The notes under the pieces were generated by a model. That model was not told the origin of the DNA. It saw only the letters and a list, made by a program, of their open reading frames with translations, and did no database searches. This document shows positions 9,701-28,302 of a stretch of 36,561 bases of DNA, in pieces. Numbering within the stretch: the first letter of the stretch is position 1; each line of letters opens with the position of its first letter. The position numbers and the translations under genes are program-made. This DNA is from an uncultured Lachnospiraceae bacterium (GTDB lineage Bacteria > Bacillota > Clostridia > Lachnospirales > Lachnospiraceae). The stretch spans positions 1-36,561 of the forward strand of contig CANRMC010000010.1 of assembly GCA_947631605.1 (NCBI GenBank), written 5' to 3'.

Positions 9701-11298
9701 GTAGTGGCAGAAATCTCTGCTGTTCCTGCACCAACTGCTGTAATCAATCCATCTTTTACTGTTGCAGCAGCACTATTACTTGTCTCCCATTTAAGTGTTT
9801 TATTTGTGGCATTCTCAGGTAAAACTGTTGGATTTAGCTGATAAGTTTTACCTGGTGCAAGCTCAATACTTCCATCCGTCATTAAGACCTTTTCCACTTC
9901 AATTGCCCCCGTCGATGTTGTTGTTGCCTTAAAGGTAGAAAGGTCGATTTCATAAAAGACTTTCGTATTATTCTTCCAAGTGTACCATACCAGTTTATTA
10001 TTGATAATTGTTGGCACACAATCTGAAAGATTTCCCTCAACACTATGTAAGGAATCTACGGTATTTCCATCCCCGTCTATTTTCTGATAATATACAGTAT
10101 TCTTCTTCGTAGATGAATCTACTCTTGACCAAAGTACTAAATAGCTATTATTTGCCAACTTCACCATATGTGGCGTAGATGCACTTATACTATATTTCTC
10201 ATATTCTGTCAGCCACTTAGTTTCAGCCTTTCCGGTTGTCTTATTCACAACAGATATGAAAATGTTGCGGGTTGTATCTTTGCCTCCTGTTGAAGTACCG
10301 CCTTCCATTACTTTCATACTGCTATTTCCGGCAAATAAATAATTATTATCTGTGACTTCAAAACCACCAAGAGATACATTGAAACTACCATCCGGCATAA
10401 CTGGAACAGAAAATGCCTGAATAATTTCGCATGCATTTCCCGATGTAGAATTTAATTTTCCGGTAGTTATATCTGATCTGTATTTTACAAGCACAATTCC
10501 TGGAGTCCCCTTATTTGTCAGCTCCGCCGATACTATATGATTATCGTCAAACCGAACAAATTGAGCATAAGAATTCATAACACATCCATTAATTTCTGTA
10601 GATGCTGATTTTACCATTTGTGAATCCACAATTGTCATATTGCTAGTATCAAGTATGATTGTTGCACTTCCTTGATCATTCGCTGTATTGCCCGATGTTC
10701 TTGTAAGCATATAGTGGCAGCTACGGATAACCAAATATTTTCCGTATTCTGCAAAGCTTAGACCTCCTTGTTCAAATGCCATAAGAGTATTATTTGTTCC
10801 CGTTAAATTCACGGTTTTTGTAGTAGAAGTATCCCATGTTTTATCGTATTGTATGATTTCCCAACACGAGATGTTATTACTTGCAACCAAACTATTATCT
10901 CTTCCTACAACAATATAGTATTTAGATTCTGATTCATGAAATCCACCAAAGAATGAGTATCCTGTCGGCATTGGAATCTCTTTTGTATTCTGCAGGTTAA
11001 AATTGCTATCATAATACTCAATAACTATTTTTGACACATCATTTGTTGCACCATTACCAATCGCCTGAACTACCATTATCTGATCGTTCGATGTCTTAGT
11101 TATATATGATTTCGTCGTCATTCCATATCCTTGTGTGGTAGCACGGTTCTGGCTCTCAATATTTGTCCCCGTATAGGTTGTGGCGGCCTCTACGGTTGCT
11201 GCGGTTCCCGGAACAGAAAAATTGCTTCCGACTGCCAGTGCCGCTGCCAGTGTAAAAGCAAAAATCCGTTTCAGAACTGTATGTTTCTGCTTCCTCAT
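6736..11298 (-). CDS. Secreted multidomain surface protein: propeller-like N-terminus, six Big_2 domains, two FN3-like domains, six ChW repeats
   Basis: The protein has 1520 aa. A signal peptide (residues 1 to about 38, with the KR/LAAALAVG pattern and an Ala-rich cleavage region) is followed by a beta-rich segment to about 455 that reads like a propeller (repeated YYIVVGRDN- and NYLFAGN-type strands). Residues about 464-1140 hold Ig-like Big_2 domains in the order Big2 x3, FN3-like, Big2 x2, FN3-like, Big2. Each Big_2 has the NATNKTLKW...ATV...G...TAVGAGTA pattern. The FN3-like modules share the EFTGLT..T(E/D)YTFY core. A Pro/Thr-rich linker (about 1140-1170) leads to six ChW repeats. There is no LPXTG-like signal, so attachment is probably through ChW or another non-covalent contact. 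GGGGG lies 11 nt before the ATG. It sits directly downstream of the giant adhesin on the same strand, separated by a strong terminator, so it has its own promoter. Confidence 0.88.
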   Translation of the reverse strand: MRKQKHTVLKRIFAFTLAAALAVGSNFSVPGTAATVEAATTYTGTNIESQNRATTQGYGMTTKSYITKTSNDQIMVVQAIGNGATNDVSKIVIEYYDSNFNLQNTKEIPMPTGYSFFGGFHESESKYYIVVGRDNSLVASNNISCWEIIQYDKTWDTSTTKTVNLTGTNNTLMAFEQGGLSFAEYGKYLVIRSCHYMLTRTSGNTANDQGSATIILDTSNMTIVDSQMVKSASTEINGCVMNSYAQFVRFDDNHIVSAELTNKGTPGIVLVKYRSDITTGKLNSTSGNACEIIQAFSVPVMPDGSFNVSLGGFEVTDNNYLFAGNSSMKVMEGGTSTGGKDTTRNIFISVVNKTTGKAETKWLTEYEKYSISASTPHMVKLANNSYLVLWSRVDSSTKKNTVYYQKIDGDGNTVDSLHSVEGNLSDCVPTIINNKLVWYTWKNNTKVFYEIDLSTFKATTTSTGAIEVEKVLMTDGSIELAPGKTYQLNPTVLPENATNKTLKWETSNSAAATVKDGLITAVGAGTAEISATTTDGSNIKVLCLVTVKDATVLITSLIMDPTTLILNQGEAKQIKTTIEPTNATVQTLEWKSNDTGIATVNPYGYVTAVAPGKTKILASTTDGSGKTVSCEVTVTSTVIPVDSVKLVKNSLSLTYGNTETLEATVWPSNATNKAVTWQSSDINVASVENGKVTAVGPGITDITVTTVDGCKTDVCAVKVFKQYETPADPVAETIADESITLVEQEGCQYSKDNLNWQESNEFTGLTPATEYTFYVKKLASGYYTESDVSSAKIRTADRLAKTLTLDKTEVTVEDGTQNVIQLTATLTPNDVTNKTIKWSSNDETVAAVDQTGKVTAKQEGTATITAATTDGTNLTATCTITVNAKIISVESVTLDKKEISLTMGEKESDTLNATVNPEAATNKTVLWKTSDSSIATVTNGKVTAVGAGSATITAYADENADIKAECTVKVYQKYEAPSAPTKKSVTDTSITLESMDGCVYSKDGTTWQSSNEFTGLTADTDYTFYAKKSKSGYYLESDKSAGTTIRTAKTPVAVTGVTLNETTKHIVLENGGGIAFSLTATVTPADATNKNLKWSSSNTAIATVSNHGTVMVRETGTVVITVETEDGGYKATCTLTIERKIPTPDPTPSEPKPSDPGQTGPSISEPTPPTPAYVPNIDVTYKTHVQSFGWQDWKKNGQMAGTSGLAKRLESININVASAESGHKVDLGVQYTTHVQSYGWMPWSANGDASGTEGEAKRLEAIKIQLTGADKDKYDIYYRVHAQSYGWLGWAKNGAPAGTAGYAKRLEGIQIVVVKKGESFNQKMEGISSAYQQPYVALAGTSPVVGGILTSSLDPQIGGTDTPNVTYRTHVQSIGWQGWKFNGQMSGTSGQAKRLEGIEIKLTNQPYPGDILYTTHVQSYGWQGDVKNPLTWRRNGTMAGTSGQAKRLEAICITLTGEMAEHYDIYYRVHAQSFGWLGWAKNGDPAGTAGYAKRLEGINIVLVPKGGSAPGSTVRSYVEK
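6788..7763 (-). repeat. Six ChW (clostridial hydrophobic W) repeats in two blocks of three
   Basis: Each unit of about 45 aa has the form (Y)xxHxQSxGWxxWxxNGxxxGTxGxAKRLExIxI. Units 3 and 6 are nearly identical (both with YYRVHAQS.GWLGWAKNG), units 1 and 4 are closest to each other, and unit 2 pairs with unit 5. This indicates duplication of a three-repeat block. Unit 5 carries an insertion (GDVKNPLTW). A linker of about 50 residues separates the blocks. Confidence 0.85.
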
Positions 11299-11451: not shown

Positions 11452-14400
11452 TTACTGCTTCTTTTTCTTTCTGCGATATATAACCCCTGCACCGGCTGCA
11501 GAAATACCTGCCAGAAGCATCCATAGAGCAAGTTTCATTTCGTCACCGGTCTTTGCCGATTGATTCTTGGACGTATCGGAAACATCCGAATCTTCCGTAA
11601 CCACATCTGCATCTTTAGCCGCATCTTGGGAAGGAGCCGCTGTAGTGCCCTGTGTGCCCGGATTCTCTGTCACGGTCGGTTCTTCCGGTTTTTTGTAAGT
11701 ATTCACGAACAACGCATGGTCTTCGCCGCCCGCTCTTACATTCTCTTTCGTATAAACCGCCTCTGCTTCCAGCTGTCCGTCTACATCTGTTACCGTAACC
11801 GTCAGTATCCAGACGCTTTCATCATAAGTATAGCCTTCGGCAGTTCCGATCAATTCTTCTAACTGCATGGTATATACACCCGGTTTCGTGAAGCGGAATT
11901 CGCCAAATTCACCGGTTCCCGGTCCCGTAATATCTATCATCATATCATCCGGCCAGATTACATCCAGGATACAGCTTTCATCCGGCGTGATATAGAAAGT
12001 AAATACTTCCGGAACTTCCGGCGTATCGCCGACTACCGTATTTTCCAGTTTCGGCGTGTATCCTACAGAAAGCGGACGATAGATATTTATAAATGCTGCC
12101 GTCTCAGACACATCTTCGCTTCCTGCCATAACATAATCTTTTCCCGTTACCTGCAGCTTTCCGTCGATATCTTCCACCGTTACCGTCAGGATCCATACAT
12201 TGATATCATAATAATATCCTGTCAATCCGTCATCTTTTTCACGGATCTCAAACTGGTAAACGCCTGCTTTTTTGAAAATGACCGGATCAAATTCCGCATC
12301 GCCGGAACCTGTCACCTGTACGGTTGTAACATCCGGCATCTGCACCTCATCCGCATACTCATCAAGCTTATTCAGGGCAAAGGTAAATGTTTTATCTTCC
12401 GGCGTTTCACCGTCCACTGTCTTGGAAACCGTCGGTGCGTACTGTGTATCAAGCGGCACATAGTCATTTATGAAGACTGCCTCCCGCCTGTTCATCAGAT
12501 GTCCGGTCTCCTCGCCCTGATCCTGACAGGTCTTGCAGGAATAGGTCACTTTCAGACCGAGCACAGCATCCGTATCGGTTACTTCTACCATCAGCGTCCA
12601 CTCTCTATGCTGTTCATACGCATATCCTGTCGGAAGCTCTGCCGGAACCTCTTCCGTGATTGTAAAGGTATATGTGCCATGCTGCGTAAATGTAATACCG
12701 CCAAATTCGGCCCAGCCGGTATCGGTTATATGCACGGTATCTCCGCCATCCGCCGGCATTACCACACGTCCGCCGTAATCTTCATCCGGCGTGATCGTAA
12801 AGTCAAATTCCTGTCCCTTCGGTCTGTCGTGTCCCGTCACAATATTGTGGACATGCGGTACATACGTCCGAGGGATTGCCTGATATACATTCGTAAATGC
12901 GGCTTCGTCCGCAGCCGTTCCATCATGTGAATACTCGGTCTTAACGACTACAAGCTGCGAATTCTGATCCTCCACCGTTACCGTCAGAGTCCAGATATCA
13001 CCGGCGTAATCATAGCCCTGTGCCTCTCCGGTTTCCTCACCGATCATGAAGCGGTAAGTTCCGGCTTTCGTAAAGGCGATCGCATCAAAGAGACTCGTTC
13101 CGCTTCCGGTAACCGTTGTATCCAGCTCGCCTGCGCTGTTTAAGACTGCGCCCTCCGGATTATCCTCGTAAGGTCTCAGATAGAAATTAAACGTATTATC
13201 AACCGGCGGATTTCCTTCCACGGTCTTGGAAACCTTCGCGGTATATTGCGTCTCTTTCACCGTATATTCATTTGTAAAGACTGCCCGGTTATCATTGGAA
13301 GTTCCATCTTCGCAAGTATAGGTATGCCTTATGACTGTAAGGACAGAATCCCGGTCTTCCACTTCAATCTCAACGGTCCAGGTCTTTCCGTCATAGGTAT
13401 AACCCGCTGCCATTTCTTTCGTTTCCCGTATTGTAAAGCGGTAAGTTCCGGCTTTCGTAAATGCGATTTCTTTAAAGCTTCGGATCGTGCCGGACGCCTC
13501 GTATGCAAGGGAATCCGTCGTGATCGCCAGCTCCTTATCCGTAATAGCTGCGCCCTCCGGATTATCTGCCGCAGCTTCAATCGTGAACCGGAAGGGTTCC
13601 GGTTTCGGCGGCCTGCTGTCGCCCGTTACTTTCTTTGCAACCACAGGTGCGTAACGCACTTCTTCCGTCTTGTAAATATTTACAAATTTTGCCGCGTCTG
13701 CATTTTTCTCCGGCGCCGTTACGGTTTCATCCGCAATACCGTTTTTCGTCTGTTCATAAACGCCCGAAGCCGTAAGAACGCCATCCGTATCCGTTACGGT
13801 AACCGTCAGCGTCCAGACGCTTTCATCATAGGAGTAACCCTTCGTGCGTCCTTTATCCTCTGTGATATTAAATGTATATTCTCCTGCTTTCGTAAATCCG
13901 ATTTCACCGAATGTACCTGTGTTCTCACCGTTTATAATTACCGTATCCTGATAATCAGCCGGCCAGATCACGCCGTCTGTACTGCCTTCCGGTTCGATCT
14001 TAAAGGTAAACGGTTTCTCGCCCACGTAGTCGCCTTCAATGGTCTTCTCGACCGCCGGTACAAAACTTGCCGCATCCGGTACATACCGGTTGACAAAATC
14101 CGCGCTGGAAGACTTGTTCACAAGCGGGCTCTGATAAGCTGCATACGCCCGGAGTCTGTGATCGTCATCCACGACTTCAACCGTAAGTGTCCATACCGTT
14201 GTATCGTAAGTATATCCGGTCGGAACGGCCGTCGGCACATTTTCCCATATCTCAAAGGTATAGGTTCCTGCCTTTGTAAAGGTGACTGCCGGGAAGTCTG
14301 CCTTTCCGCCGCCCGTCCGGTTCGTACTCAGTACCGTATCGAGCGTAAGCGGCTGTTTATTTGCCGCGCAGCCGTCGGCAGGCTCCAGCCCTGTCGGTTT

Positions 14401-17400
14401 CAGGGAGAATGTAAATGTCTTCTCCATGCCCTCCGGCACCGGATTGCCCGTAACCGTCTTTGTCACACGCGGCACAAGCCTTGTGCTGATTACCGAATAA
14501 TGATTTGTAAATGTTGCTTCTACCGTGCTGGATTCAGCTGTTCCCGTCTCCGGTTCATAAACAGGAGCTACTTTCAGCTTGCCGTCTACATTCGTAACTT
14601 CAACAGTTAAGATCCAGGCCGCAGCATCATAATCGTAACCATGCGCTTCTCCGGTTTCTTCTGTTATCCGGAACTTGTAAGTGCCTGCCTGATCAAATGT
14701 AATTTCTTCAAAATCTGCTCTGCCCACGCCGGTCACGGAAGCGGTCCGGCTATCCGGCATGATCACTCCGGTGTCTGCTCCTTCTATCTTCTCGATCGCA
14801 AACGTAAATTCTGCTTCATGATTTTCCGGCATCTCTGCGCCTTCTACAACCTTCCGTGCCCAAGGCGTGTAACCGACCGGATCCGCCTCGAACCGGTTCA
14901 CAAAGGTTGCCGTATCTTTCGAAGTATCTCCCCGCCTGTCTCGATATGTGATATCTGCTGTAAGTACCGAAGCTTCATCCGTTACGACCACCGTTACATT
15001 CCAGATCCTGCCGGAATACGTATAGCCTGCCAGATGATGATTTTTCTCCGTGATCTGGAACCGGTACGTTCCCGCCTTTGTAAAGGTGATAGCATCATAA
15101 GACGCCGTTCCTTGTAAATGTGCGCTGTCAGGCGTAATTGTTATCACCTTGTTATCCGGCACGATTGCTCCGTTCTTCGGATTTGCCGTTACGGAAAGTT
15201 CAAATTCAAACGTTTCATCCGTGTTCGGAAGTACGCTGGACGCATCCACCACAAGCTGTTTCGTTACATTCAGCACTGCGGTAGTCTCTGTAACGGCATA
15301 TGCATTTTCAAACGCCGCACTGATATCCGTTACCCCGTCATCCCTTGTATACGTTACCGACTGCACTGTCAGAACGCCGTCTATATCGACAACTTCCACC
15401 GTCACTGTCCAAACGTGTTCGTCATAAGTATATCCCGGCGTACCATCATTATCCTGACGGATTTCAAAGGAATACGTTCCTGCCTTATTAAATGTAATAT
15501 CTCCGAATCTTCCCACTGCGGAATGTGCCTGAAGCTCCTTTGTTCCTACAGAAGCAGAAGCCGCCGCAGGATCCGGAAGTTCTGCGCCTGCCGGATTTCC
15601 GCTTGCTGCAGTCAGGGTAAATGTAAAGGCTTTTTCATCCGGCGTCTCGGCACCGGTGATCGTATCGCTTACAACCGGCTGATACTTCACGGCATCCGGC
15701 GTATAGCTGTTACCAAAGAGCGCCAGCGTTCCGGTCGTACCGTCTTTCAACTGATACGTTGCACTTTCTATCTGAAGCGCACCGCCTGCATCCGAAACGG
15801 TAACCTTAAGCATCCATACCGTTCCGTCATACCCATAACCGTGATCCTGATTCTCCGGAGTAAATTCCGTATTCATTTCACGGATTTCAAAAATATACTC
15901 GCCCTTCACCTTAAATGTGATCGGTTCAAAGGACGCTTTTCCCTGACCGGTAATCTGAATCCGTGAATCCGCCGGCATTTCCACGCTGTCCGAATCCGCA
16001 GTAGTACTTATACCAAAGTAGAAGTTCTTATCTTCACCCTCCGGTACATCGCCGGTTACCTGTTTCTCTACCTCTGCGGTAAATGTTATCGGAGTTACCG
16101 AATACTCATTCGTAAAGAGCGCACGATTCATACTGCTGTCATCGCCTCTGGTATAAGAAACGCTTTCCACGCTTAAAACCGCATCCGTATCTGTCACGAC
16201 GACTGTCAGCGTCCATGGCGCGTCATCATATTTATACCCTTTGACGCCGCCGTTCACTTCCTGAATCGTAAAGTGGTAAGTACCCGCTTTTGCAAATGTA
16301 ATATTTCCGAACTCAGCCATTCCTTCACCGGTTACAGAAGCTGTTGCAGGACTTGGAAGTTCTGCGCCGCCTGCCGGATTTCCGGACTGTTCGCTCAGGG
16401 CAAAGCTGAATATGCTGTCTGACGACGGTTCCGCACCGATTATTTCCTTTGCTGCCTTCGGTGCAAATGTCACCTTCTGCGGTGTGTAAATATTCTCAAA
16501 TTCCGCAGTATCCGCCACGGTTCCGGTTCCTTCTGCCGGCTCCCCTGCTTTCGAATACGAAGCAGTCGCTTCAAGCTGACCGCCGATATCCGTTACTACA
16601 ACAGTAAGCGTCCACTCACTGTCATCATATTTATAGGTGGTATCCTCCGTCTGCTGCGTTTCTTTTATTATGAAGTTATAAGTTCCTTCCTCTGTAAATT
16701 GAATCTCCTGGAAATCACCTGAAACCGTCGGATTCTCGCCCGCCAATGTCTTGAGTGTCAGTTCCACATCCGATGGCAACCGGTAACCAACTGTAGGATT
16801 TTCGGAAGCAGCTTCCAAAGTAAACATAAATTCATGATCGTTTACCGGCGTTCCGTCAATCTTCTTTGTCACAGCCGGCGCGTATTCCGTAGGAAGCGGA
16901 TGGTAGTTATTGCTAAATACTGCTGCCGACTCCGTGCGGCTTCCTGCCTGATATGTGATAGACGTCGGAAGCGTAAGCTGAGAATTCTCGTCCTTTACTT
17001 CTATCTGAACCGTATATACATCACCGGAATAGGTATAACCATTCTTGCCATCATTAACCTCTCGGATTTCAAAGGTATAGGTTCCTGCTTCTTTGAATGT
17101 AACTGCCTCAAATTTCTTATTGCGTGCAGACTCATCAATATAATCAATCTCAAGCGAGGTATTTACCGGAAGTACAACACCGTCTTCTGGATCTGCGGCC
17201 TTCAGCTTTAATTCAAAATGGAACTTCTGTTCATATCCTTCCGGTACTGTTCCTTCCAAAATCTTCTGAACAGGTATCTCATAGGAAACGGTCTTTACTT
17301 CATAATTATTTTCAAAGACTGCATTTTCCGGATTCGTATCTTCACCGGAACCGGCAGCGTCTTCCTTCTGATAAGAATGCGTTTCTTTCAGATATCCATT

Positions 17401-20400
17401 TACGTTCGTTACCGTAACCGTAAGAATCCAAGAACTGTCATCATAAGTATACCCCAGTGTGCTTCCGGCGATTTCCGTTATACGGAATTTATAATCTCCC
17501 GGTTTCGTAAACTTAATCTGTTCAAAGTTCGTCTTACCGCTTCCGGCAACCGAAGCTGTCATATTTGCCGGCAACGTCACTCCATCCTCTGACGCTGCCT
17601 TGCCCGCACCGTTTACACCCAGATATTCTATTTTGAAATTAAATGTCTCCGGAGCATTCGTCACTCTGGAACCCGTCAGACGTTTTTCAACCTGAGGATA
17701 ATAACCAACCGGATTTGCCCGGTAATTATTCTCAAAATCAACTTTAGCTGCCGTTTCCGATATGACTTCTTCACCTTTAGATTCCCATTTTGTATACTTG
17801 GTTTCTACTTTAAGTTCAGAATCCACATCCGTAACCGTTACTTCGATCGTCCAGACATGACCGTCATAGGTAAAGCCCGCCGTAGCACTGTCCGGCTTAT
17901 TATTATTTACCTCCGTAATCTGGAACCGATAGGTACCTGCCTTAGTAAAGGTGATATCGTCAAAACTCTTCTCACCAACTACCTGTTTGCCTGCTCTTGT
18001 AGCACTATTATCCGGCAGTGTGATCGTGATTGTCTTCTGCCCGCCCGGAGCAAGGCTTGCGCCCGGATCATCATTATCTGCACTTGCCTCGAGTATGAAG
18101 GTAAATATCTCCGGTTTTGCAGGATTATCATTCTCGATTGTAAGTGTCTTCGTAATATCCGGCGTAAATGTAGCAGGCGTTACATGGTATTCATTCGTAA
18201 ATACCGCTCTGTCATCCGCAGAATCGGAAACTGCCCCATCCTGTCTGTACGTAATGGAATCTACAGCTAAATGTCCGCCTTTATCAGACACCTTAACCAT
18301 TACTGTCCACTGCGTTCTATCATATGTATAACCTTTGTCTGAACCCTCTGTTTCGGCAACCGTAAATTTATAAGTTCCGGCTTTCTTAAAGGTAATCTTC
18401 TGCGATGTTTCACCTTCACCGGTAATCGTTACGGTCTTTTTATTCTCCAGATCTGCACCGCCATTATTATTTCCGGCTGCTGCTGTTATATCAAAAGAAA
18501 ATGTTTTATCTACAGGAGTCACATCGCCTTTTATCTCTTTTACAATGACAATATCCTTATCAACCGGTTTCGGCTCATAATCATTGTGGAAGTAAGCCTT
18601 TCCATCATTCGGACTTGGATCTGAAGTATCCGAACTGCTTGCTTTATATATCACATCCGTATCCGCAATCTCAAGCTGGCTTTCATTATCCTTCACTACG
18701 ACCGTAAGCGTCCAAGTGCGTTCATCAAAAGTATAGCCCTCCGGTACCGGATCCGGCTTCTGTTCCTTGATAGTAAAGGTATAAGTTCCGGCCTGTTTAA
18801 AGGTAAGAACAGGGAAAGATACCTCTCCAGCACCGATTCTCTCAGCCGTAATGATATCCGTTGCTTCCAATGGTAAACCGTCAAACTTATCAACCATGCC
18901 ACTGTAATCTGCTGTTGATGCTAGGTTAAATGTATAAGTAATTTTCGTTAACGGTGTCTCACCTGTAAGTACCTTCACAGCCTTTGCCTCATAGATTGTC
19001 GGCTTCAAAGTATAGGTATTTACAAATATTGCTTTCTCCGAATTTTCCGTATCTCCGGAGTCATCACCATTCTTCTTATAAGTATGACTCTCTACTTCCA
19101 ATGTGCCGTCATGATCTACCACCACTACTTCAAGATCCCAAGTAGATTTGTCAAAGGTATAGCCTGCATATGTCTCTTGCTTCTCGGTAATTGTAAAGCT
19201 ATAGGTGCCTGCCTTGGTAAATTTAATGTCAGCAAATTTGGTTGTATTCACAGATGCATTACCTGTTATAAAAGTTGTTTTCTTCGTTGGAAGCTCTGCG
19301 CCATCATTATCACCGGCATTCTCAATAGAGAATGTGAAAGTCTTCTTTTTTTCCGGTATCGGATCGCCTGCAAATTCTTTCTGAACTTCCGGAGCATATG
19401 TTATTGGAATTGGTACATATTCATTTCGGAAATATGCCGTCTCACTATTTGTTTCATCTTTACCCGCAACAGAACTATCAATCTCATATTCTGCATTAAT
19501 CTTAAGAATACTGTCATTATCTGTAACCTCTACCTTCAGTGTCCATTCACGTTCATCAAAAGTATAACCTGCCGGAAGCGGAGTTGGTTTTACCTCTTTA
19601 ATTGTAAATTCATAAATTCCTGCTTGTGTGAAAGTAAGGGTTGGGAAAGTAACTTCACCAGAGCCGGTATGTTTAACAGTAATCGAATCGGTTGTTAATG
19701 CTATAGCATCGTTCTTAACCTTGCCTTCATAATTTTTCTCCGGTACCAGCTCAAACGTAAATTCATAATCCTTTACCGGTTTCTGCCCGCTCAGAATCTT
19801 CTCCGCCTTCGGTGTGAATGAAACCGGTGTTACTGCATACCTGTTCGTGAATATAGCATTTTCATCACTTTCATCCGTATCTTCACCTGTGGTCGCCTTC
19901 TTCCTATACTTATTGCTACTTACTTCCAATACACCGTCATTATCTTTCACTTCTACCGTAAGCGTCCATACACTGTTATCATATTCATAACCGGAATCCG
20001 AGCCCTTTTTTTCGGCAATCGTGAAGTTATAAGTACCTGCTTTTTCAAATGTGATTTCACCAAATTCAGCAGTTCCTTCACCTATCACAGTTGTTGTTTG
20101 TTTGGCAGGAAGCGTTGCAGCAGCCGGATTACCTGCATCTGCGGAAATTGTAAATTCAAAGGTCTTCCAATTGACTGTCGGAATTGGATCGCCGATAAAC
20201 TCCTTCTTTACCTGCGGCGTATATTTTACTGGTGTCGGAATATAACGGTTTGTAACCATAGCTACAGCAGATTCAATATCCGGAGCCGGAGTATCATCCA
20301 CCTGAATTTCCTTTATTTCCAATTGTCCCGTCGTAGAATCTTCAACAGTAACTGTAACTGTATGTTCTTTCTCATCATATTCTATAAAATTATAATATCC

Positions 20401-23400
20401 AGCAGAAGCATCTGTCGGAATCTGTTCTTTGACAGAGAAGGTATATACCCCGGCTTCATTAAATCTAAAGTCTAATTTTTCCTCTTTTTTAGACTCAGTA
20501 AATGTCAACGGTATGCTATCCGGCAAAGCTTTACCATCATACATTACACTGTCTGCATTATCGCTGGTCACTTTGACATCAACTGTAAAGCTATCCGTCT
20601 CTTTCCATTCTCTCTCTTCTAGTTCTTTCTTAACTGTAAAGCCTCCTGTAACATAAGCTGCATTGGTAAATGGAATAACGATACCCTCAGATTCTGTCTC
20701 AATAACCTCACAGTCAGCTTCGTCCAGATAACCCGTAGAACTATACTTAGCAGAAACTGTCAGATTACCTGTCGGAAGGTTTGTATCATGATTCCTTTCC
20801 CTATCAACAAGCATAGTTAAGTAAAGTTCTGCATCTGACGTGTCCGTATTATGCAGACCACTGATATCTTCTGTAATCTCAAATCCATATTTCTGGACAG
20901 AGTCACCCCCGGAAGTTATTTTAATATCTCCAAAATTATTACTTCTGGTATTACCATCTGCCTTATCTGTCCCCTTGACAGTCAGCGTATAATACCCACT
21001 TTCATCCGGGGCTCCCATAGATTCCGGCAAAACCAGAATTTCATCCTCGATTGCCTTTTGAGTATCCTCATCCGGCAAGACTTTAAAAGTAAAAGTATCC
21101 GTTTCACGCCACTTTCTACCTTCAAGCGTTTTCTTAATCGTAAATGGTACAGTTCTTTCTGTATCCGAATATTGATTTGTAAATTCTATTGGCGTTGAAG
21201 TTGAAAAACTTGTTTCATTCGGAAATTGAAGGGTAAGGATTCCCACTTTATTATCTTCTATCTGAACTCTAACAGTTCTTTCATTTTTACTTATATCATC
21301 AAAACCTCCACCTGCGGCATGTGTCTCAGATATAGTCACATCATATATTCCAGGCTTTGTAAAAGTTATAGGTCCAAAAGTTGCTTCATGAGGTTCATCA
21401 TAAGTAATCGTAGCTTGGTCCTTTTTAGGAGAAATTGAGTATCCATCTTTAGGAGTACCTTCGACTGGCGTTACATCCATTTGGAAAGTAAAACTATCAG
21501 TCGGTTCCCAGCTTCTTCCTTCCAAGGTTTTCTTTATATGTGGTTCCCAGCTTGTCGGTTGTGCCTTATAAATATTAGTAAATGTCATGGAATGGTCTGG
21601 ACCATGCTTTGATGATACTACTTTTTCATTTCCATCTTCATCTGCTTCTTGTACTATGACACAACTACAATATGGTGAATCTCCATCCTTGTAATTTTTA
21701 TAAAGATTCATTGTAATCTTGTCTATAACGCCATCTATTTCCCCAGCACCGTCAACAGAATTTTCCAATTCAATTTCCAGCAGATATTTATCCGTTGAAT
21801 ATGTAATGCCTTGATAAACTCCACCAACAGCCTCTTTCGGAGATACTTCTTGAATGATAAACTTCCAGATAATAGGTTCTGTTATCGGAGTATCAAGTTT
21901 ATCTCCGTTCTCATCTACATTTGTTGCTTTAAATTCTACATCATGGAAAGATATATCTTTAATTTCAAAAGAAGGGTTATCCTTATCTAAATAAAAGTGT
22001 CTTTCAGACGAAGCGCCGTCACCGGAAGTATCAGGGACTTCAAACTCATCGCCTTCAGTCCCCTCAATTATTATATATCCTTCACGAAGTGCTTTTTGTG
22101 AATCTTCATCCATGCCATCGATAATAAACTCGAACTTATCACTGCTTTCCCATTCAGAGTCTGTTCTACCAGTTAAGACCTTCTCTATAACATATTTTGT
22201 ATGCAAATCTACATCCTGAACTGTATAAACATTTGTAAATACAGGAGCATTTCCGGAAAAAATGAAACTTTCACTGCTTCCGGTTTCTATATCATCCTGA
22301 TACGTGATATTCGATATAGTTGCCGTAAGATGAGAATTATCTTTCGTCGCATCTCCTTCTACACCATCATCAAGCGCACGTACAACATCTATTGTAACTG
22401 TATATTTTCTTGAAGATGTCGTTAACGTAGGATCATCTGTTTTAATAGGATTTTCCTGTACTGTAAAAGTATAAGTGCCTGCCGCAGGAAATTCTTTCCC
22501 ATTTAAACTTGCCTTACTGTCACTATCCGTTCCATCCACAAGTAATGGGGCGGAAGCTTTCGTATCTGCACTTAAAACCCCATTTGTGATTGCATAATTA
22601 TCGGAATCCCCGATTGTAACATCATCATCTTCTTCAAAAGCTTCCACAAAGTCTTTTTTACTTTTATTTACATTATCCTCTTCCAAAAGATTGTTTTCAT
22701 CTGGTGTAATTTTAATATCCGTCTCATTGAACTTAATGTCAAATGTAAAAACATCAATTCCCGGCAGCCATGCACGTCCCGTAATACGTTTTCTAAGTTC
22801 AAATTCACCTTCCGCCGGAGCATTTCCTACTTTAACAAGGCAATAATTATCATCACTAAAACATAACTCACTACCATCCGAAGTTTTTCCTTTCGGATTA
22901 ATCTGATAATATTCCTGCAAGATACGATATCCACTAGGAGCATATCGTTCCCGTACAGTGTATGTTTCCTCAGGGTTAAGACCGGAAAAAGCAAATCTTC
23001 CATTTGCACGAGTTGCAGCGCTATCTACCTGTATTGCTATTAAAGCACTATATGCCTTATTGGCTTCTTCACGTAACCTCTCTTTCTCCTCCGCATCAGT
23101 TGCACTCTCATAAGCAGCCATAGCAGAGGCGTACGCATCCGCTTTCCCTTTTACTGTTTCCAAATCCCCCTCATATACATTAAATACGGCAGCATCCAAG
23201 TATGTTTCTCCCTCATCTGCATCCGTATATTTAAGAACTTCTATCGTTCCAGGTTCCTGTGCATTTGTAACTGTAATAGTATGAACCGCTGTCCCTCGGT
23301 CAATATCAAGTACACTATTATAAGGCGCAACAACCTGATCTACTGTTGGTTCTGTACCCGCTGGCAATGCAGGTTCCCACTTTTCTATAGCTAAGAAGTC

Positions 23401-26340
23401 ATGCCCGTCAATTTTTCCATCTCCATCAAAATCCGGCATTGTATCCATGGTATATGCCGTTTTCGGCTCCTTTTTTAAGGTGTCCCTTTCATAATCGCTG
23501 ATGGAAAAATAAGTATCTTCACCTACAAAACTATTATATATACCCTTTTCAGCATCGTAATCATATTTGTGTCGAAAAACTTTGTCTCCTGAAATGTAGT
23601 ATTCTGCTGAAATAAAGTAATCGGTAACAGTTGTTCCATTAATCTCCTTAGGCATGTAATACTGATTATCAAGCCAGGAGGTGATTTTTGATAACGTTCT
23701 GCAATCCCATGTACCTGTCGTGCCATTTTCAAATCTATAACTGATTTCTAATACAACAGAAGTTGGGATCCCCTTTAGATTCGCTGGTGACCAGTCTTTT
23801 TTTAATTTAAGGGTATATGGCGTTGTATCATATCCATAACCTACATCTATTGTGGTAATCGTGTTATTATCTGAACTAGGATTAACACCTCCTGCTCCAC
23901 CTATGGTAAGAATCTGAATTTCTGTACCTTTTGCCGTTTTATCATAGCTATAAAGTGAATATTGTAATCCATAACTTGGTTTATTCGCACTTGTACTCGT
24001 GTCTGTTGCTCCGGATACCCCTCCTGATGTAAGTTTATAATCATTATTGGGCTTTACAACATGATATAAATATGTAGTACCTTCTGATTTGTCATATTCA
24101 ACACCTGTAAATATATATGTTCCCAAAGCAGGTGTAATCCCGGTTTGTACCAACTCATAAATATCCTGTGAAGAAGCTTCACTTCTGTCATTAATTGTTC
24201 TTAATATTCCTTGATCTTTATCTACAACTGCATAGCTGTGTTCAGGCTGAAGTTTCTCGTCCTCTTCTATTTTTTTATATAATTCAACTGTCACACCCTT
24301 TAACAGATGATCCCCATCCTCCTTTGAATTATACTTTCCATTAGTCACTGTTTCATCATAAAATACCCTGCCAACCAAATTACAGTATTGTTTATTTCCG
24401 TCAATAGGTTTTATAATATTTATTGGCTCTTCTGATGTAAGTGCCTTAGCAGCTGTAAACATCCAATAATTTGCAATTGCATAATCTGTAACAGTGCTAG
24501 GGTTACTGTTATTCGCAGATACCGCAACCGGATTCTTTTTACTATCGAGATAATTTATCATATCCTGCTGACTGCTTGCATCTGCACCAAAATTAATAAC
24601 ATTACTAGTATGACTATGATCCCCCATTCTCAATCCGTGGTTTTTAGCATATAACTCATATAGATAATATTCATTATGACTACTTGAATTATTTATTGCA
24701 TTCACATATTGGTATGGCGTCTCTTTGCCCTGAATTGTCTTAACTTTACTTTCCGATTCCCCCTTAGCTGTAATTCTTTCACCATAATAAATAGCAGTAT
24801 CATCATAATATACTACACTTCTGGTTGCATCATATATTGTTCCTTTACCATCAAGTTGCCCACCTTCCCTGTCATATATTTTACTGACACGAGTAAATGT
24901 AATTCCCTGAGGTGCCTCTTCAGCATCAAAAATCGGGAAATGGATTTCACCTGCTTTTGTTGTCACTGAATAACTCTTTATATCAGTACCATTTGTTATT
25001 ACTGTTCCTGCTCCATCTCTTCCATCCCAGAAAAAAGTATTCGTTGCATAAGGCATAACAACGTCAGAGATTTCAACTGGCTTATAATCTTCCTTAAATT
25101 CAATGCGTAAAGTAGCAGTCGTTGCCTCTTTTACATCAAACGAAAAATATCCGCCATTACCAGCATACATCTCATCACCTGCGAATTCCAGGTTGACAGC
25201 CGGATCGGGTAATATTGCCTCTTCATAAAATATTCCTTTCAGATCATCATTTGGCTGTTCAAAAAATATATGAAAATTTTTAGATAAGTCATTATCTTTT
25301 GTGGCCGGATATGTGTAACTGACTCCAAATTTATCAAAAAGGTTGGTGTTTTCCAAATCTTTTACCGATTTATATACAATATTTCCATTCGCGCTATCAA
25401 TCAAACCGCGATTATTTGCAAAGAAATTATAAGTATATGGTTTCACCCCATTAAAAGTCATGCTATAAATATAACTATCTGAAGTCACAATATAATAGCG
25501 TTCTTTCATAGAAGGTTTGGTTCCTGTCTGCAAGGAAAGAAAATCAGTATAAACTCTTCCTGTTTTCTTTTCATTGTTTTCATTAAAAACAGTGATATCC
25601 CATGCTGATACCAAACCGGGTTCATCACTAGGCGCTAGCAATGCATCTTTCTTTGCCTTATTATATTTATCTGCAACTCCCCCTCCACTATATGACCGGA
25701 ATTCAACCGTATATATACCGGATTCCGGAACAGTATATACATATGGCTTATATGTTTCGTTACCATCTGGAGATGTCATATTTTTAGCAGCTTGTTCTTT
25801 TTCTACCGTTTCAATGTGACCTGCTTCACCTTTTTTTATATCAACAGGTATTCGCGTATCATTTAAATCTCTGATAACGATATCAATTGATCCATCATCT
25901 GTATGTGAAATATTTATATTCGTATCTCTTTTTCCATCCAATGCATAACCACCAGCATTATATATATTAGTACCAAGACAAATTTTATCACCGGCAAATG
26001 CATATACATGAATATAATTCTTTTTTTCTACACCACCGAATCTACCTTCCATCCAGTTTAAAAAAACTCTAGATGCATCACTATTTTCAAGTGGCTCTTC
26101 TTCAATCATCGTAGATTCATCCGCTTCAGCAATCGGCATCACTGCATTTTCTGCCATCAGGGTAAAATTATTCCCTGAATTGCTTCCTTCCGTTTCTTCA
26201 GAATCTATATCTGTAGAGGTGCTTTCAGCAGTATCTGCCTCTGCTGCAAACAAAATAAGCCCCTCTGCATTGGAAAAGCACATACACAAGCAGAGCAGCA
26301 ACGCTATTATCCGTTTCATCATCTTAATCTTTGTTTTCAT
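11452..26340 (-). CDS. Giant (4962-aa) sortase-anchored adhesin with 26 pilin-type isopeptide domains
   Basis: A signal peptide (1 to about 34, MMKRIIALLLCLCMCF) precedes a unique N-terminal adhesive region (about 35-640) containing a FlgD-like FFWDGRDGAGT strand. Next come an SdrD_B-like domain (about 650-780, LVGRVFYDE), a lone EF-hand loop DFDGDGKIDGHDF near 970, and a SpaA/CnaB-like domain (about 1030-1170) interrupted by an Ala/Glu-rich helical insert. Residues about 1176-4882 are 26 Spy0128/FctA-type pilin isopeptide domains of about 140 aa. The C-terminus has SAKTGD, a hydrophobic segment and RRKKKKQ, a KTGD-type sorting signal. The mature protein should form a long, covalently stabilised stalk on the cell wall presenting the N-terminal tip. 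No sortase lies in this window. The ribosome site is GGGAGG before the ATG at 26338-26340. The 5' third looks more AT-rich than the 3' half. Ligand unknown. Confidence 0.93.
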   Translation of the reverse strand: MKTKIKMMKRIIALLLCLCMCFSNAEGLILFAAEADTAESTSTDIDSEETEGSNSGNNFTLMAENAVMPIAEADESTMIEEEPLENSDASRVFLNWMEGRFGGVEKKNYIHVYAFAGDKICLGTNIYNAGGYALDGKRDTNINISHTDDGSIDIVIRDLNDTRIPVDIKKGEAGHIETVEKEQAAKNMTSPDGNETYKPYVYTVPESGIYTVEFRSYSGGGVADKYNKAKKDALLAPSDEPGLVSAWDITVFNENNEKKTGRVYTDFLSLQTGTKPSMKERYYIVTSDSYIYSMTFNGVKPYTYNFFANNRGLIDSANGNIVYKSVKDLENTNLFDKFGVSYTYPATKDNDLSKNFHIFFEQPNDDLKGIFYEEAILPDPAVNLEFAGDEMYAGNGGYFSFDVKEATTATLRIEFKEDYKPVEISDVVMPYATNTFFWDGRDGAGTVITNGTDIKSYSVTTKAGEIHFPIFDAEEAPQGITFTRVSKIYDREGGQLDGKGTIYDATRSVVYYDDTAIYYGERITAKGESESKVKTIQGKETPYQYVNAINNSSSHNEYYLYELYAKNHGLRMGDHSHTSNVINFGADASSQQDMINYLDSKKNPVAVSANNSNPSTVTDYAIANYWMFTAAKALTSEEPINIIKPIDGNKQYCNLVGRVFYDETVTNGKYNSKEDGDHLLKGVTVELYKKIEEDEKLQPEHSYAVVDKDQGILRTINDRSEASSQDIYELVQTGITPALGTYIFTGVEYDKSEGTTYLYHVVKPNNDYKLTSGGVSGATDTSTSANKPSYGLQYSLYSYDKTAKGTEIQILTIGGAGGVNPSSDNNTITTIDVGYGYDTTPYTLKLKKDWSPANLKGIPTSVVLEISYRFENGTTGTWDCRTLSKITSWLDNQYYMPKEINGTTVTDYFISAEYYISGDKVFRHKYDYDAEKGIYNSFVGEDTYFSISDYERDTLKKEPKTAYTMDTMPDFDGDGKIDGHDFLAIEKWEPALPAGTEPTVDQVVAPYNSVLDIDRGTAVHTITVTNAQEPGTIEVLKYTDADEGETYLDAAVFNVYEGDLETVKGKADAYASAMAAYESATDAEEKERLREEANKAYSALIAIQVDSAATRANGRFAFSGLNPEETYTVRERYAPSGYRILQEYYQINPKGKTSDGSELCFSDDNYCLVKVGNAPAEGEFELRKRITGRAWLPGIDVFTFDIKFNETDIKITPDENNLLEEDNVNKSKKDFVEAFEEDDDVTIGDSDNYAITNGVLSADTKASAPLLVDGTDSDSKASLNGKEFPAAGTYTFTVQENPIKTDDPTLTTSSRKYTVTIDVVRALDDGVEGDATKDNSHLTATISNITYQDDIETGSSESFIFSGNAPVFTNVYTVQDVDLHTKYVIEKVLTGRTDSEWESSDKFEFIIDGMDEDSQKALREGYIIIEGTEGDEFEVPDTSGDGASSERHFYLDKDNPSFEIKDISFHDVEFKATNVDENGDKLDTPITEPIIWKFIIQEVSPKEAVGGVYQGITYSTDKYLLEIELENSVDGAGEIDGVIDKITMNLYKNYKDGDSPYCSCVIVQEADEDGNEKVVSSKHGPDHSMTFTNIYKAQPTSWEPHIKKTLEGRSWEPTDSFTFQMDVTPVEGTPKDGYSISPKKDQATITYDEPHEATFGPITFTKPGIYDVTISETHAAGGGFDDISKNERTVRVQIEDNKVGILTLQFPNETSFSTSTPIEFTNQYSDTERTVPFTIKKTLEGRKWRETDTFTFKVLPDEDTQKAIEDEILVLPESMGAPDESGYYTLTVKGTDKADGNTRSNNFGDIKITSGGDSVQKYGFEITEDISGLHNTDTSDAELYLTMLVDRERNHDTNLPTGNLTVSAKYSSTGYLDEADCEVIETESEGIVIPFTNAAYVTGGFTVKKELEEREWKETDSFTVDVKVTSDNADSVMYDGKALPDSIPLTFTESKKEEKLDFRFNEAGVYTFSVKEQIPTDASAGYYNFIEYDEKEHTVTVTVEDSTTGQLEIKEIQVDDTPAPDIESAVAMVTNRYIPTPVKYTPQVKKEFIGDPIPTVNWKTFEFTISADAGNPAAATLPAKQTTTVIGEGTAEFGEITFEKAGTYNFTIAEKKGSDSGYEYDNSVWTLTVEVKDNDGVLEVSSNKYRKKATTGEDTDESDENAIFTNRYAVTPVSFTPKAEKILSGQKPVKDYEFTFELVPEKNYEGKVKNDAIALTTDSITVKHTGSGEVTFPTLTFTQAGIYEFTIKEVKPTPLPAGYTFDEREWTLKVEVTDNDSILKINAEYEIDSSVAGKDETNSETAYFRNEYVPIPITYAPEVQKEFAGDPIPEKKKTFTFSIENAGDNDGAELPTKKTTFITGNASVNTTKFADIKFTKAGTYSFTITEKQETYAGYTFDKSTWDLEVVVVDHDGTLEVESHTYKKNGDDSGDTENSEKAIFVNTYTLKPTIYEAKAVKVLTGETPLTKITYTFNLASTADYSGMVDKFDGLPLEATDIITAERIGAGEVSFPVLTFKQAGTYTFTIKEQKPDPVPEGYTFDERTWTLTVVVKDNESQLEIADTDVIYKASSSDTSDPSPNDGKAYFHNDYEPKPVDKDIVIVKEIKGDVTPVDKTFSFDITAAAGNNNGGADLENKKTVTITGEGETSQKITFKKAGTYKFTVAETEGSDKGYTYDRTQWTVMVKVSDKGGHLAVDSITYRQDGAVSDSADDRAVFTNEYHVTPATFTPDITKTLTIENDNPAKPEIFTFILEASADNDDPGASLAPGGQKTITITLPDNSATRAGKQVVGEKSFDDITFTKAGTYRFQITEVNNNKPDSATAGFTYDGHVWTIEVTVTDVDSELKVETKYTKWESKGEEVISETAAKVDFENNYRANPVGYYPQVEKRLTGSRVTNAPETFNFKIEYLGVNGAGKAASEDGVTLPANMTASVAGSGKTNFEQIKFTKPGDYKFRITEIAGSTLGYTYDDSSWILTVTVTNVNGYLKETHSYQKEDAAGSGEDTNPENAVFENNYEVKTVSYEIPVQKILEGTVPEGYEQKFHFELKLKAADPEDGVVLPVNTSLEIDYIDESARNKKFEAVTFKEAGTYTFEIREVNDGKNGYTYSGDVYTVQIEVKDENSQLTLPTSITYQAGSRTESAAVFSNNYHPLPTEYAPAVTKKIDGTPVNDHEFMFTLEAASENPTVGYRLPSDVELTLKTLAGENPTVSGDFQEIQFTEEGTYNFIIKETQQTEDTTYKYDDSEWTLTVVVTDIGGQLEATASYSKAGEPAEGTGTVADTAEFENIYTPQKVTFAPKAAKEIIGAEPSSDSIFSFALSEQSGNPAGGAELPSPATASVTGEGMAEFGNITFAKAGTYHFTIQEVNGGVKGYKYDDAPWTLTVVVTDTDAVLSVESVSYTRGDDSSMNRALFTNEYSVTPITFTAEVEKQVTGDVPEGEDKNFYFGISTTADSDSVEMPADSRIQITGQGKASFEPITFKVKGEYIFEIREMNTEFTPENQDHGYGYDGTVWMLKVTVSDAGGALQIESATYQLKDGTTGTLALFGNSYTPDAVKYQPVVSDTITGAETPDEKAFTFTLTAASGNPAGAELPDPAAASASVGTKELQAHSAVGRFGDITFNKAGTYSFEIRQDNDGTPGYTYDEHVWTVTVEVVDIDGVLTVQSVTYTRDDGVTDISAAFENAYAVTETTAVLNVTKQLVVDASSVLPNTDETFEFELSVTANPKNGAIVPDNKVITITPDSAHLQGTASYDAITFTKAGTYRFQITEKNHHLAGYTYSGRIWNVTVVVTDEASVLTADITYRDRRGDTSKDTATFVNRFEADPVGYTPWARKVVEGAEMPENHEAEFTFAIEKIEGADTGVIMPDSRTASVTGVGRADFEEITFDQAGTYKFRITEETGEAHGYDYDAAAWILTVEVTNVDGKLKVAPVYEPETGTAESSTVEATFTNHYSVISTRLVPRVTKTVTGNPVPEGMEKTFTFSLKPTGLEPADGCAANKQPLTLDTVLSTNRTGGGKADFPAVTFTKAGTYTFEIWENVPTAVPTGYTYDTTVWTLTVEVVDDDHRLRAYAAYQSPLVNKSSSADFVNRYVPDAASFVPAVEKTIEGDYVGEKPFTFKIEPEGSTDGVIWPADYQDTVIINGENTGTFGEIGFTKAGEYTFNITEDKGRTKGYSYDESVWTLTVTVTDTDGVLTASGVYEQTKNGIADETVTAPEKNADAAKFVNIYKTEEVRYAPVVAKKVTGDSRPPKPEPFRFTIEAAADNPEGAAITDKELAITTDSLAYEASGTIRSFKEIAFTKAGTYRFTIRETKEMAAGYTYDGKTWTVEIEVEDRDSVLTVIRHTYTCEDGTSNDNRAVFTNEYTVKETQYTAKVSKTVEGNPPVDNTFNFYLRPYEDNPEGAVLNSAGELDTTVTGSGTSLFDAIAFTKAGTYRFMIGEETGEAQGYDYAGDIWTLTVTVEDQNSQLVVVKTEYSHDGTAADEAAFTNVYQAIPRTYVPHVHNIVTGHDRPKGQEFDFTITPDEDYGGRVVMPADGGDTVHITDTGWAEFGGITFTQHGTYTFTITEEVPAELPTGYAYEQHREWTLMVEVTDTDAVLGLKVTYSCKTCQDQGEETGHLMNRREAVFINDYVPLDTQYAPTVSKTVDGETPEDKTFTFALNKLDEYADEVQMPDVTTVQVTGSGDAEFDPVIFKKAGVYQFEIREKDDGLTGYYYDINVWILTVTVEDIDGKLQVTGKDYVMAGSEDVSETAAFINIYRPLSVGYTPKLENTVVGDTPEVPEVFTFYITPDESCILDVIWPDDMMIDITGPGTGEFGEFRFTKPGVYTMQLEELIGTAEGYTYDESVWILTVTVTDVDGQLEAEAVYTKENVRAGGEDHALFVNTYKKPEEPTVTENPGTQGTTAAPSQDAAKDADVVTEDSDVSDTSKNQSAKTGDEMKLALWMLLAGISAAGAGVIYRRKKKKQ
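11695..22813 (-). repeat. Array of 26 tandem Spy0128-like pilin isopeptide domains
   Basis: Each unit begins with a V/A-x-K-x-x-x-G strand, holds an (A)GTYxFxIxE strand and GYTYDxxxWTLTVEVTD, and closes with a FxNxY strand running into the next unit. In the solved Spy0128 pilin these positions supply the Lys, Glu and Asn of an intramolecular isopeptide bond. By eye 23 of 26 units keep the Lys, 25 of 26 keep the Glu, and all keep the Asn. Exceptions are unit 17 (Lys to Asp, Glu to Gln), unit 24 (Lys to Asn) and unit 26 (Lys to Asn). Units 1-5, nearest the N-terminus, are longer and more divergent. Units are diverged at DNA level, which should limit recombination. Confidence 0.88.
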
Positions 26341-26761: not shown

Positions 26762-26911
26762 CTTTCACAACACATGGCATTTTAAGAATAAGTTCTTTTA
26801 AAGAGCAAAAAATATAATTATCCAAATTATAGCTTAGTGTATTTAAAATCACAGGCAGAGTATATAAAATTTTCATTATCAAGAATATTTTCAAAGCAAG
26901 GAGGTTCAAGT

Positions 26912-27997
26912 ATGAAAAACAAATCCGTATATTATCGTCGGGATGGTCGGTGGGAATGTAGAATTTCTTTTGGAAAAGATGAAAACGGCAGAAGAAAATA
27001 TCGTTCTTTTTATGGAAAAACACGGGAAGAAGCCGAATTTCATGCGGAGCTTGCGCTGGGAAATGAGAAGAAAGATACTATCCTAACGGAAATGACGGTC
27101 AGAGAACTGATTTTGGAATGGCTGTTTGTCACATCCACCCGAATAAAAGAGTCCACAATGGCGAATTATCTTATGAAAGCCGAAAAACACCTGATTCCTG
27201 CATTCGGAGATATGCAATGCTGCACATTAAGGTCAAGAGATGTGTATGTCTTCATAGAAAGCAAGCTGAAATCAGGACTTTCGCCTCGATATGTCACAGA
27301 CATCATTGTAATCCTAAAATCCGTTTTCCGTTACGGAAGCCAAGAATACCATATCCATAACGTAATTGACGGTATCGTCATGCCGAAAAAAGGCAAGCCG
27401 GATGTCAAAATCCTCTCTGCGAATGAGCAAAAAAAATTAGAGACGTATATCGCTGAAAATCAGAATCTTACTGCACTTGGCATATCTTTTTCCATGTATA
27501 TGGGGCTTAGGATTGGCGAGGCATGCGCGCTGAAATGGAGCGACATTGATTTTGAAAAACGGATTTTAACCGTCAGCCATACCGTTCAGCGTATTCAGGC
27601 AAAAAACAGTTCGAAGAAAACGAAGCTCGTTCTCTCCGAACCGAAAAGCATAAGTTCCAGACGTGAGATTCCGATACCGGAACGTATGCTGGAAATAATG
27701 AGAACATTCAAGAATTCTGATTCACTCTATGTTCTATCGAACAGCCACAAACCGGTTGAGCCGAGAGTCATGCAGTATCGCTTCGCAAAACTTCTAAAAA
27801 ACGCTGGGCTTCCCTCTGTGCATTTCCATAGTCTCCGCCACTTGTTTGCAACCAACTGTATCGCATTGGGTTTTGATGTAAAGACATTATCCGAGCTGCT
27901 TGGACATAGCTCCGTCGAAGTCACACTCAATCGGTATGTACACTCATCCATGGAGCGGAAACGCGTCTGCATGAACCTAATCGACATTTCGGCGTAA
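26912..27997 (+). CDS. Tyrosine recombinase/integrase (Tn916/phage-type)
   Basis: The protein has 361 aa from the ATG at 26912, with AAGGAGG ending 7 nt upstream. The frame is open further upstream but lacks another ribosome site. Residues 1 to about 50 (YYRRDGRWECRISFGKDENG) match the AP2-like arm-binding domain of Tn916-type integrases. About 55-160 is the SAM-like core-binding domain and about 170-360 the catalytic domain. The active-site set is complete: Arg in GLRIGEA, HxxR in HSLRH, His in LLGHSS and the Tyr nucleophile in NRYVH. It should therefore be able to cut and rejoin DNA. No excisionase, relaxase or phage gene is seen nearby. It is divergent from the giant adhesin and followed by 10-11-bp-spaced direct repeats. 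Confidence 0.92.
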   Translation: MKNKSVYYRRDGRWECRISFGKDENGRRKYRSFYGKTREEAEFHAELALGNEKKDTILTEMTVRELILEWLFVTSTRIKESTMANYLMKAEKHLIPAFGDMQCCTLRSRDVYVFIESKLKSGLSPRYVTDIIVILKSVFRYGSQEYHIHNVIDGIVMPKKGKPDVKILSANEQKKLETYIAENQNLTALGISFSMYMGLRIGEACALKWSDIDFEKRILTVSHTVQRIQAKNSSKKTKLVLSEPKSISSRREIPIPERMLEIMRTFKNSDSLYVLSNSHKPVEPRVMQYRFAKLLKNAGLPSVHFHSLRHLFATNCIALGFDVKTLSELLGHSSVEVTLNRYVHSSMERKRVCMNLIDISA

Positions 27998-28025
27998 CGT
28001 CAAAAAACGTCAATGTATCGTCGAA
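27996..28025 (+). repeat. Helically spaced short direct repeats at the integrase stop
   Basis: AACGTCAA occurs at 27996-28003 and again at 28006-28013, and a related TCGTCGAA lies at 28018-28025. The shared CGTC falls at 27998, 28008 and 28019, a spacing of 10 and 11 bp. Closely phased short repeats at the end of an integrase gene are the usual form of arm-type binding sites, but that role is inferred. Confidence 0.4.
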
Positions 28026-28103
28026 CTTTCCCTTAAAATATCAAATAGGATAAAGAATTTTAGATTTATTTCTTAAAATGCCATGTTTTGCGAAAAATTA
28101 TTC

Positions 28104-28133
28104 AAAAAAAGAGACTAACCTTTCGGTCAGCCT
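28104..28133 (-). terminator. Minus-strand hairpin terminator between integrase and HTH gene
   Basis: On the minus strand AGGCTGACC-GAAA-GGTTAGTCT folds into a 9-bp stem with two G-U pairs and a GNRA-type GAAA loop, then CTTTTTTT. On the plus strand the same positions give A-C mismatches, so the structure belongs to a minus-strand RNA. There is no evident minus-strand gene upstream of it (28134-28302), so it may end a lost gene or a small RNA. The remainder of 28026-28253 is AT-rich and shows no further gene. Confidence 0.6.
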
Positions 28134-28253
28134 CCTGTTGCATTTTTTCCATTAAGCTAATTCTACAATGCGTTTTTTTATTCTCAAGCAATATTTCCTG
28201 TCAATAATTTGATTTATAGCGGCAAACAAGTGATATTTTCATAATTTTTTTGC

Positions 28254-28282
28254 TTGACAATACTTCGGTCAACCGACATAAT
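28254..28282 (+). promoter_or_regulatory. Promoter of the HTH/nucleotidyltransferase pair with an embedded operator-like palindrome
   Basis: TTGACA (28254-28259), a 17-nt spacer and CATAAT (28277-28282) lie just upstream of the HTH gene. Within the spacer TCGGT-CA-ACCGA (28265-28276) is a dyad of 5-bp arms ending at the -10 hexamer. A repressor bound there would exclude RNA polymerase, which fits autoregulation by the first gene product. A related 11-mer (TTCGGTCAGCC) occurs at 28122-28132. Confidence 0.65.
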
Positions 28283-28302
28283 CAAAACAGAGGTGATCTC
28301 AA

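Follow-up and report, generated by a model that had tools for sequence, protein, structure and literature searches.

Is a surface protein that strings pilin domains together in a single chain to be understood as part of a pilus, as a replacement for one, or as an ordinary fibrillar adhesin? As a rule, the pili of Gram-positive bacteria are handled as a class apart from single-chain fibrillar adhesins, and the gene described here shares features with both. The window, i.e. the whole stretch of DNA that was analysed, has a length of 36,561 bases and is the entire contig C10 of a 2.34-Mb MAG that is 97% complete.

Layout of the giant adhesin

A single open reading frame on the minus strand (26340..11452), with an ATG start and no internal stops, encodes a giant surface adhesin of 4962 aa. 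The layout is that of a fibrillar adhesin, with an N-terminal head, tandem stalk domains between and an anchor-like tail at the C-terminus. The features of the gene are as follows.

11452..26340, minus strand: giant surface adhesin open reading frame, 4962 aa (translation and Pfam)
26236..26340, minus strand: signal-peptide-like N-terminus, aa 1-35, basic, then hydrophobic, then AEA (judged by eye from the translation)
23236..26082, minus strand: conserved head module, aa 87-1035, without a Pfam family (Pfam; AlphaFold pLDDT 85.5, pTM 0.88)
22897..23217, minus strand: SpaA (PF17802) prealbumin-like domain, aa 1042-1148 (Pfam)
20224..22806, minus strand: neck, FctA units u1-u5, aa 1179-2039, colinear with the five FctA units of the pilus-operon relatives L058 and L059
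11680..20223, minus strand: stalk extension, FctA units u6-u26, aa 2040-4887, 127-155 aa each, missing from the pilus-operon relatives
15280..15684, minus strand: u17, isopeptide triad lost (D/Q/N)
12442..12864, minus strand: u24, Lys lost (N/E/N)
11680..12060, minus strand: u26, Lys lost (N/E/N), adjoining the wall anchor
11455..11559, minus strand: sorting-signal-like C-terminal tail, aa 4928-4962, with SAKTGD, a hydrophobic stretch and RRKKKKQ; neither an LPXTG nor a TGG signal

The giant is probably a single-chain, sortase-anchored fibrillar adhesin, in which a head of the pilus-tip type is carried on an FctA stalk and most units are locked by their own internal Lys-Asn isopeptide bond.

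FctA units and the isopeptide triad

A preliminary description of this DNA had counted about 26 pilin-like units in the 4962-aa chain, and the number proved to be exactly 26, both as separate stretches matched by the Pfam FctA family (PF12892; 1232.8 bits against a cut-off of 22.1) and in our own unit-by-unit alignment (aa 1179-4887). The NCBIfam model TIGR03786 scores 865 bits on the same protein. Searched against the PDB, a profile of the 26 units matches T-antigens as well as Spy0128, and the triad Glu of the units aligns with the position that reads Ala in the Spy0128 E117A structure (3gld), so that the profile search proposed in the preliminary description places the units in the Spy0128/FctA family down to the level of single residues. 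The structure prediction proposed there gave a Spy0128-type, CnaB-like fold for u16-u17 (AlphaFold2, pLDDT 92.7). The best Foldseek matches of this model in the PDB are 3gle, 6bbt, 8f70, 3gld, and 3b2m; Spy0128 ranks first, and T-antigens, PitB, and FctB are also among the leading matches. The pairwise rmsd of these matches is high, probably because two rigid domains are superposed at a differing angle; single-domain FctB entries reach a TM-score of 0.68-0.74 over the target. A non-isopeptide Ig family was rejected as a better reading of the units, since the FctA score lies far above that of every other Pfam family. Weak matches of the giant to THSD1_N, DUF6941, and a reovirus family form no stand-alone stretch and were taken as chance overlap.

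The Lys/Glu/Asn pattern that had been ascribed to the units is complete in 23 of the 26 and does not extend to u17, u24, and u26, which are without the bonding Lys; the Asn is invariant throughout. Across approximately 40 FctA proteins, relatives included, 8 of the 17 units without the Lys have lost the Glu as well (always to Gln), compared with 5 of 390 units that retain the Lys (Fisher p = 1.6e-9). As expected for a working isopeptide bond, the residues of the triad thus appear, from their pattern of substitution, to be kept or lost jointly. The giant shares its fold, its profile match and the Lys/Glu/Asn positions with the S. pyogenes T-pilus shaft pilin Spy0128 and with PitB and FctB (PF12892, TIGR03786), but differs from these pilins in having 26 domains per chain rather than two per subunit, three of them without the Lys, as well as a KTGD-type tail and no adjacent pilus sortase.

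The head module and its distribution

The head comprises some 1,000 conserved residues, hardly any of which are annotated in Pfam: no family matches aa 87-1035, after which the SpaA domain follows (aa 1042-1148). More than 80 columns are invariant in an alignment of 34 orthologues, among them a GDHS motif. The AlphaFold model of the head is confident (pLDDT 85.5, pTM 0.88), and its matches in the PDB are pilus or multi-domain beta proteins, namely the shaft pilin SpaA, Cna B repeats, GBS52, Cpa, and complement components. Overall structural similarity to any of these matches was not found (TM-score over the query at most 0.12), and neither Pfam nor the PDB structure search recognised a known adhesive domain. 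From the model, we read this region as a putative multi-domain adhesive head with CnaB-type modules. A literature search returned nothing that describes the head or FctA arrays of this kind.

A scan that used the head as a single sequence detected no relatives, and one that used an alignment of three sequences detected 32 loci (L058-L089). Of these loci, 31 come from 'Lapin' (French for rabbit) gut MAGs, as found by a scan whose two peptide patterns were derived from a set of three sequences that itself included at least two from Lapin MAGs. The range of WGS accessions suggests that the Lapin MAGs make up no more than about 1,100 of some 85,000 species, and with so small a share the excess from the rabbit gut is large. 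The carriers are labelled Lachnospiraceae, Oscillospiraceae, Ruminiclostridium, Dysosmobacter, Clostridia, and Bacilli, and the one non-Lapin locus is a partial match in a Bacteroidales MAG from horse faeces. It should be noted that this tally covers the named scan; the genomes G269, G336, G359, and G555 are not assignable to a host. A literature search for the Lapin MAG set found no paper. The head is possibly a host-linked module that is tied to the rabbit gut. A distant version of part of the head (approximately 300-350 positions) was also seen in G673:C6, G433:C1, G521:C1, G467:C5, and G610:C2, in open frames of 5011-7703 aa.

One head in pilus operons and on long arrays

The first 2039 residues of the giant are 44% identical to L058 over 1840 columns and 41% identical to L059 over 2035 columns, and both of these relatives are encoded beside a class C sortase and pilin-like genes. 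All five FctA units of each find their best match in the giant at their own index, 1 to 5 in order (10 of 10). The giant is therefore a full head and neck of the pilus-operon type, with 21 extra units ahead of the anchor. Within the giant itself, the first units of the neck are longer and position-specific, and u6-u26 are uniform.

Two forms can be distinguished across the head family. Short forms have 2190-2473 aa, usually 3-5 FctA units and a GG-type sorting motif, and they are usually encoded in an operon with genes for a major pilin (TGG at its end) and a minor pilin, for one or two class C sortases, and for an accessory sortase. Long forms have 3046-6133 aa and are not found in such operons. 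Among the genes with adequate flanks, a class C sortase is adjacent to 10 of 14 short forms compared with none of 10 long forms (Fisher p = 5.8e-4), where the class call means that four checked proteins passed the NCBIfam cut-off and the others are homologous to these four, and where the call at L076 is given by PF04203 matches 2.4 kb downstream. Neither a pilin nor a class C sortase occurs near the 10 long forms. The sorting motifs divide the two forms without overlap, with TGG or AGG in all 14 short forms and TGD, TGT, TGV, TGN, or TGS in all 11 long forms (GG-type, 0 of 11). An intermediate form, L060, has 2914 aa, five units, and a TGD tail, and both forms are present in the genomes G012, G398, and G399.

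The division is not complete in every respect. Four short forms are without an adjacent pilus sortase, and a general statement that long forms never lie near a sortase had to be dropped: a class B sortase is encoded directly downstream of L068 and of L071, and an unclassified sortase directly downstream of L047, and none of the three reaches the class C cut-off. The short genes L136 (G398:C2), L137 (G399:C5), and L139 (G269:C12) have a PSAGG tail and no adjacent pilus sortase, and L136 adjoins tig-clpP-clpX.

An unrooted tree of the heads, reconstructed with a quick method, interleaves long and short forms and requires at least five changes between them. A tree constrained to a single clade of short forms is worse by 443 log-likelihood units (AU p = 1.9e-41). 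Of the contrasts between long and short forms, only two are on branches with full support. Both go in the predicted direction, but with so few the association falls short of significance once kinship is strictly corrected for. Judged by sequence comparison, the long array and the pilus operon look like interchangeable ways to present one head, exchanged several times. The preliminary description had spoken of a genetically fixed pilus-like stalk, and the finding of the same head on short pilus-operon proteins lends comparative support to this part of it. We give roughly even odds to the fuller scenario, in which one unannotated adhesive head has passed at least five times, in both directions, between display on a pilus polymerised by sortase and display on one encoded chain with as many as 31 FctA domains. 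In this scenario the array functionally replaces polymerisation, and the head is a rabbit-gut adaptation across several Bacillota families.

Like the pilus tip adhesins Cpa/Spy0125, SpaC, and RrgA, the giant has a head with CnaB-type modules followed by isopeptide domains, and its short relatives stand in class C sortase operons together with TGG-ending pilins. In these relatives, head and neck on a short protein would cap the polymerised pilus. The giant differs from the tip adhesins in its 21 additional units, in the lack of an operon and of a TGG motif, and in a head whose TM-score over the query does not exceed 0.12. With fibrillar adhesins and tandem-isopeptide surface proteins (PMC8286594, PMC12617251) it has in common the N-terminal head, the tandem stalk, and the C-terminal sorting signal; the difference is that its head is nearly without Pfam annotation and is common to pilus-operon proteins.

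This second likeness leads to the strongest alternative, namely that the array is an ordinary fibrillar-adhesin stalk grown by duplication, and that its likeness to pilus-operon proteins stems only from shared adhesive heads that domain shuffling has passed around, without pilus and stalk having replaced each other in function. The published stalks of fibrillar-adhesin-like proteins range from 1 to 73 domains (PMC8286594), isopeptide domains often occur in tandem (PMC12617251), and a second giant FctA protein in the same genome has a VWA-type head. The shuffling of heads would account less readily for a neck (u1-u5) that is colinear with the pilus-operon proteins in addition to the head, or for the fact that long array and pilus operon are mutually exclusive at each locus in our data. 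We regard this alternative as rather improbable. A head that occurs on both types of display, and whose neck is colinear in the two, offers a natural experiment on polymerisation, in which a regulable length can be compared with one fixed by the gene. The question of whether an adhesive domain works on an arbitrary stalk, as asked in PMC8286594, becomes directly testable with a head family of two forms.

Sortases and the proposed anchoring of the giant

The earlier statement that no pilus sortase is adjacent to the gene is borne out for the whole 36.6-kb contig, on which no sortase was found, including by homology. The window likewise holds no operon with pilus sortase and pilins around the giant gene, and the tail (SAKTGDE) is without the pilin-type sorting motif, which is TGG in the short-form loci. 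Elsewhere, the genome encodes a class C sortase together with a major pilin of the SpaH/EbpB type (C39) and a class B sortase (C98).

These enzymes could in principle act in trans, in which case the giant would itself be a pilus subunit, either shaft or tip, and the array would lengthen each building block instead of replacing the pilus. A class B sortase polymerises the FctA pilin Spy0128 in S. pyogenes (PMC3019223), and a sortase of this class is encoded directly downstream of the long relatives L068 and L071. The tail of the giant, however, reads AKTGD, as opposed to the TGG or AGG of the pilins and short forms in these loci, and none of the 10 long forms with adequate flanks lies near a pilin or class C sortase. 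Polymerisation in trans is consequently judged unlikely, and more so than the growth of an ordinary stalk.

For the preferred reading, a single anchored chain, the following sequence of events can be proposed. The chain would be secreted by Sec, and a sortase encoded elsewhere would attach its KTGD-type C-terminus to the wall in one event. The 23 units with a complete triad would crosslink themselves, giving an inextensible, protease-resistant rod of about 0.1 micrometre (at an assumed 5 nm or so per domain, taken from Spy0128), while the three Lys-less units (u17, u24, and u26) may unfold under load. The head would bind a putative ligand in the gut. An array that mixes intact and predicted bond-less versions of one domain is well suited to single-molecule mechanics.

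Array length, unit diversity and composition

The preliminary description considered the protein exceptionally long, and the survey of repeat number that it suggested does not uphold this view, as larger arrays exist, and the relatives that share its head include proteins of up to 31 units and 6133 aa. FctA proteins occur in 98 of 397 genomes of the bacterium's taxonomic family, with open frames that include 5632, 4723, 4600, 4520, and 4347 aa, and, at a stricter threshold, in 47 of 391 genomes of its class. The second giant of the same genome (L038:8437-19065, G000:C27) has 3543 aa, 11-12 FctA units, a SAKTGD tail, and a weak VWA match in its head, and a third, shorter FctA protein is encoded on C138.

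The 26 units of the giant have a mean pairwise identity of 32% (maximum 50%), and Tandem Repeats Finder detected no DNA tandem repeats in the gene. Hence an artefact of assembly or slippage was rejected, and the number of units belongs to the gene and not to the assembly. In its conserved head and in a stalk length that varies between relatives (from about 3 to 31 units in the head family), the giant's family resembles the Periscope proteins (PMC9704523, PMC8201768), but a Periscope-type protein that tunes its reach by rapid change of repeat number within a species is very improbable, since these have near-identical repeats, and slippage or homologous recombination between units as diverged as those of the giant is unlikely to be frequent, so that length varies between lineages rather than rapidly within species.

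The composition of the gene changes along its length. GC3 is 0.19-0.26 in the first three units, climbs smoothly through the stalk and is about 0.5 in its last third (rho 0.89), and GC1 climbs as well (rho 0.82). The gene is AT-rich at its 5' end and close to the composition of the host at its 3' end. GC3 is higher in the last third than in the first in 22 of 25 FctA arrays with at least eight units (Wilcoxon p = 6.6e-6), a set that includes the near duplicates L130 and L131. The rise is strong in the longest arrays (L130-L132) and absent in L045 and L047; besides the giant, it was noted in L130, L131, L132, L051, L066, L070, and L074. A reading of the gradient by selection only was not adopted, since GC1 rises too. 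A slope of this kind would result if the head had repeatedly been replaced by recombination with AT-rich donors, with crossovers at random points of the homologous array.

The neighbourhood of the gene offers several further observations. The gene downstream (6736-11298) encodes a surface protein of 1520 aa that has six Big_2 domains and six ChW domains, and this gene, too, shows an increase in GC3, from about 0.3 to 0.5. Another ChW-like protein is encoded near a class D-like sortase on C1. Upstream, at 26837-29578, an integrase-like gene about 0.5 kb from the start of the giant is followed by genes for an HTH protein and a nucleotidyltransferase-like protein (identified by eye), the latter two of low GC, and this region looks like the remnant of a mobile element.
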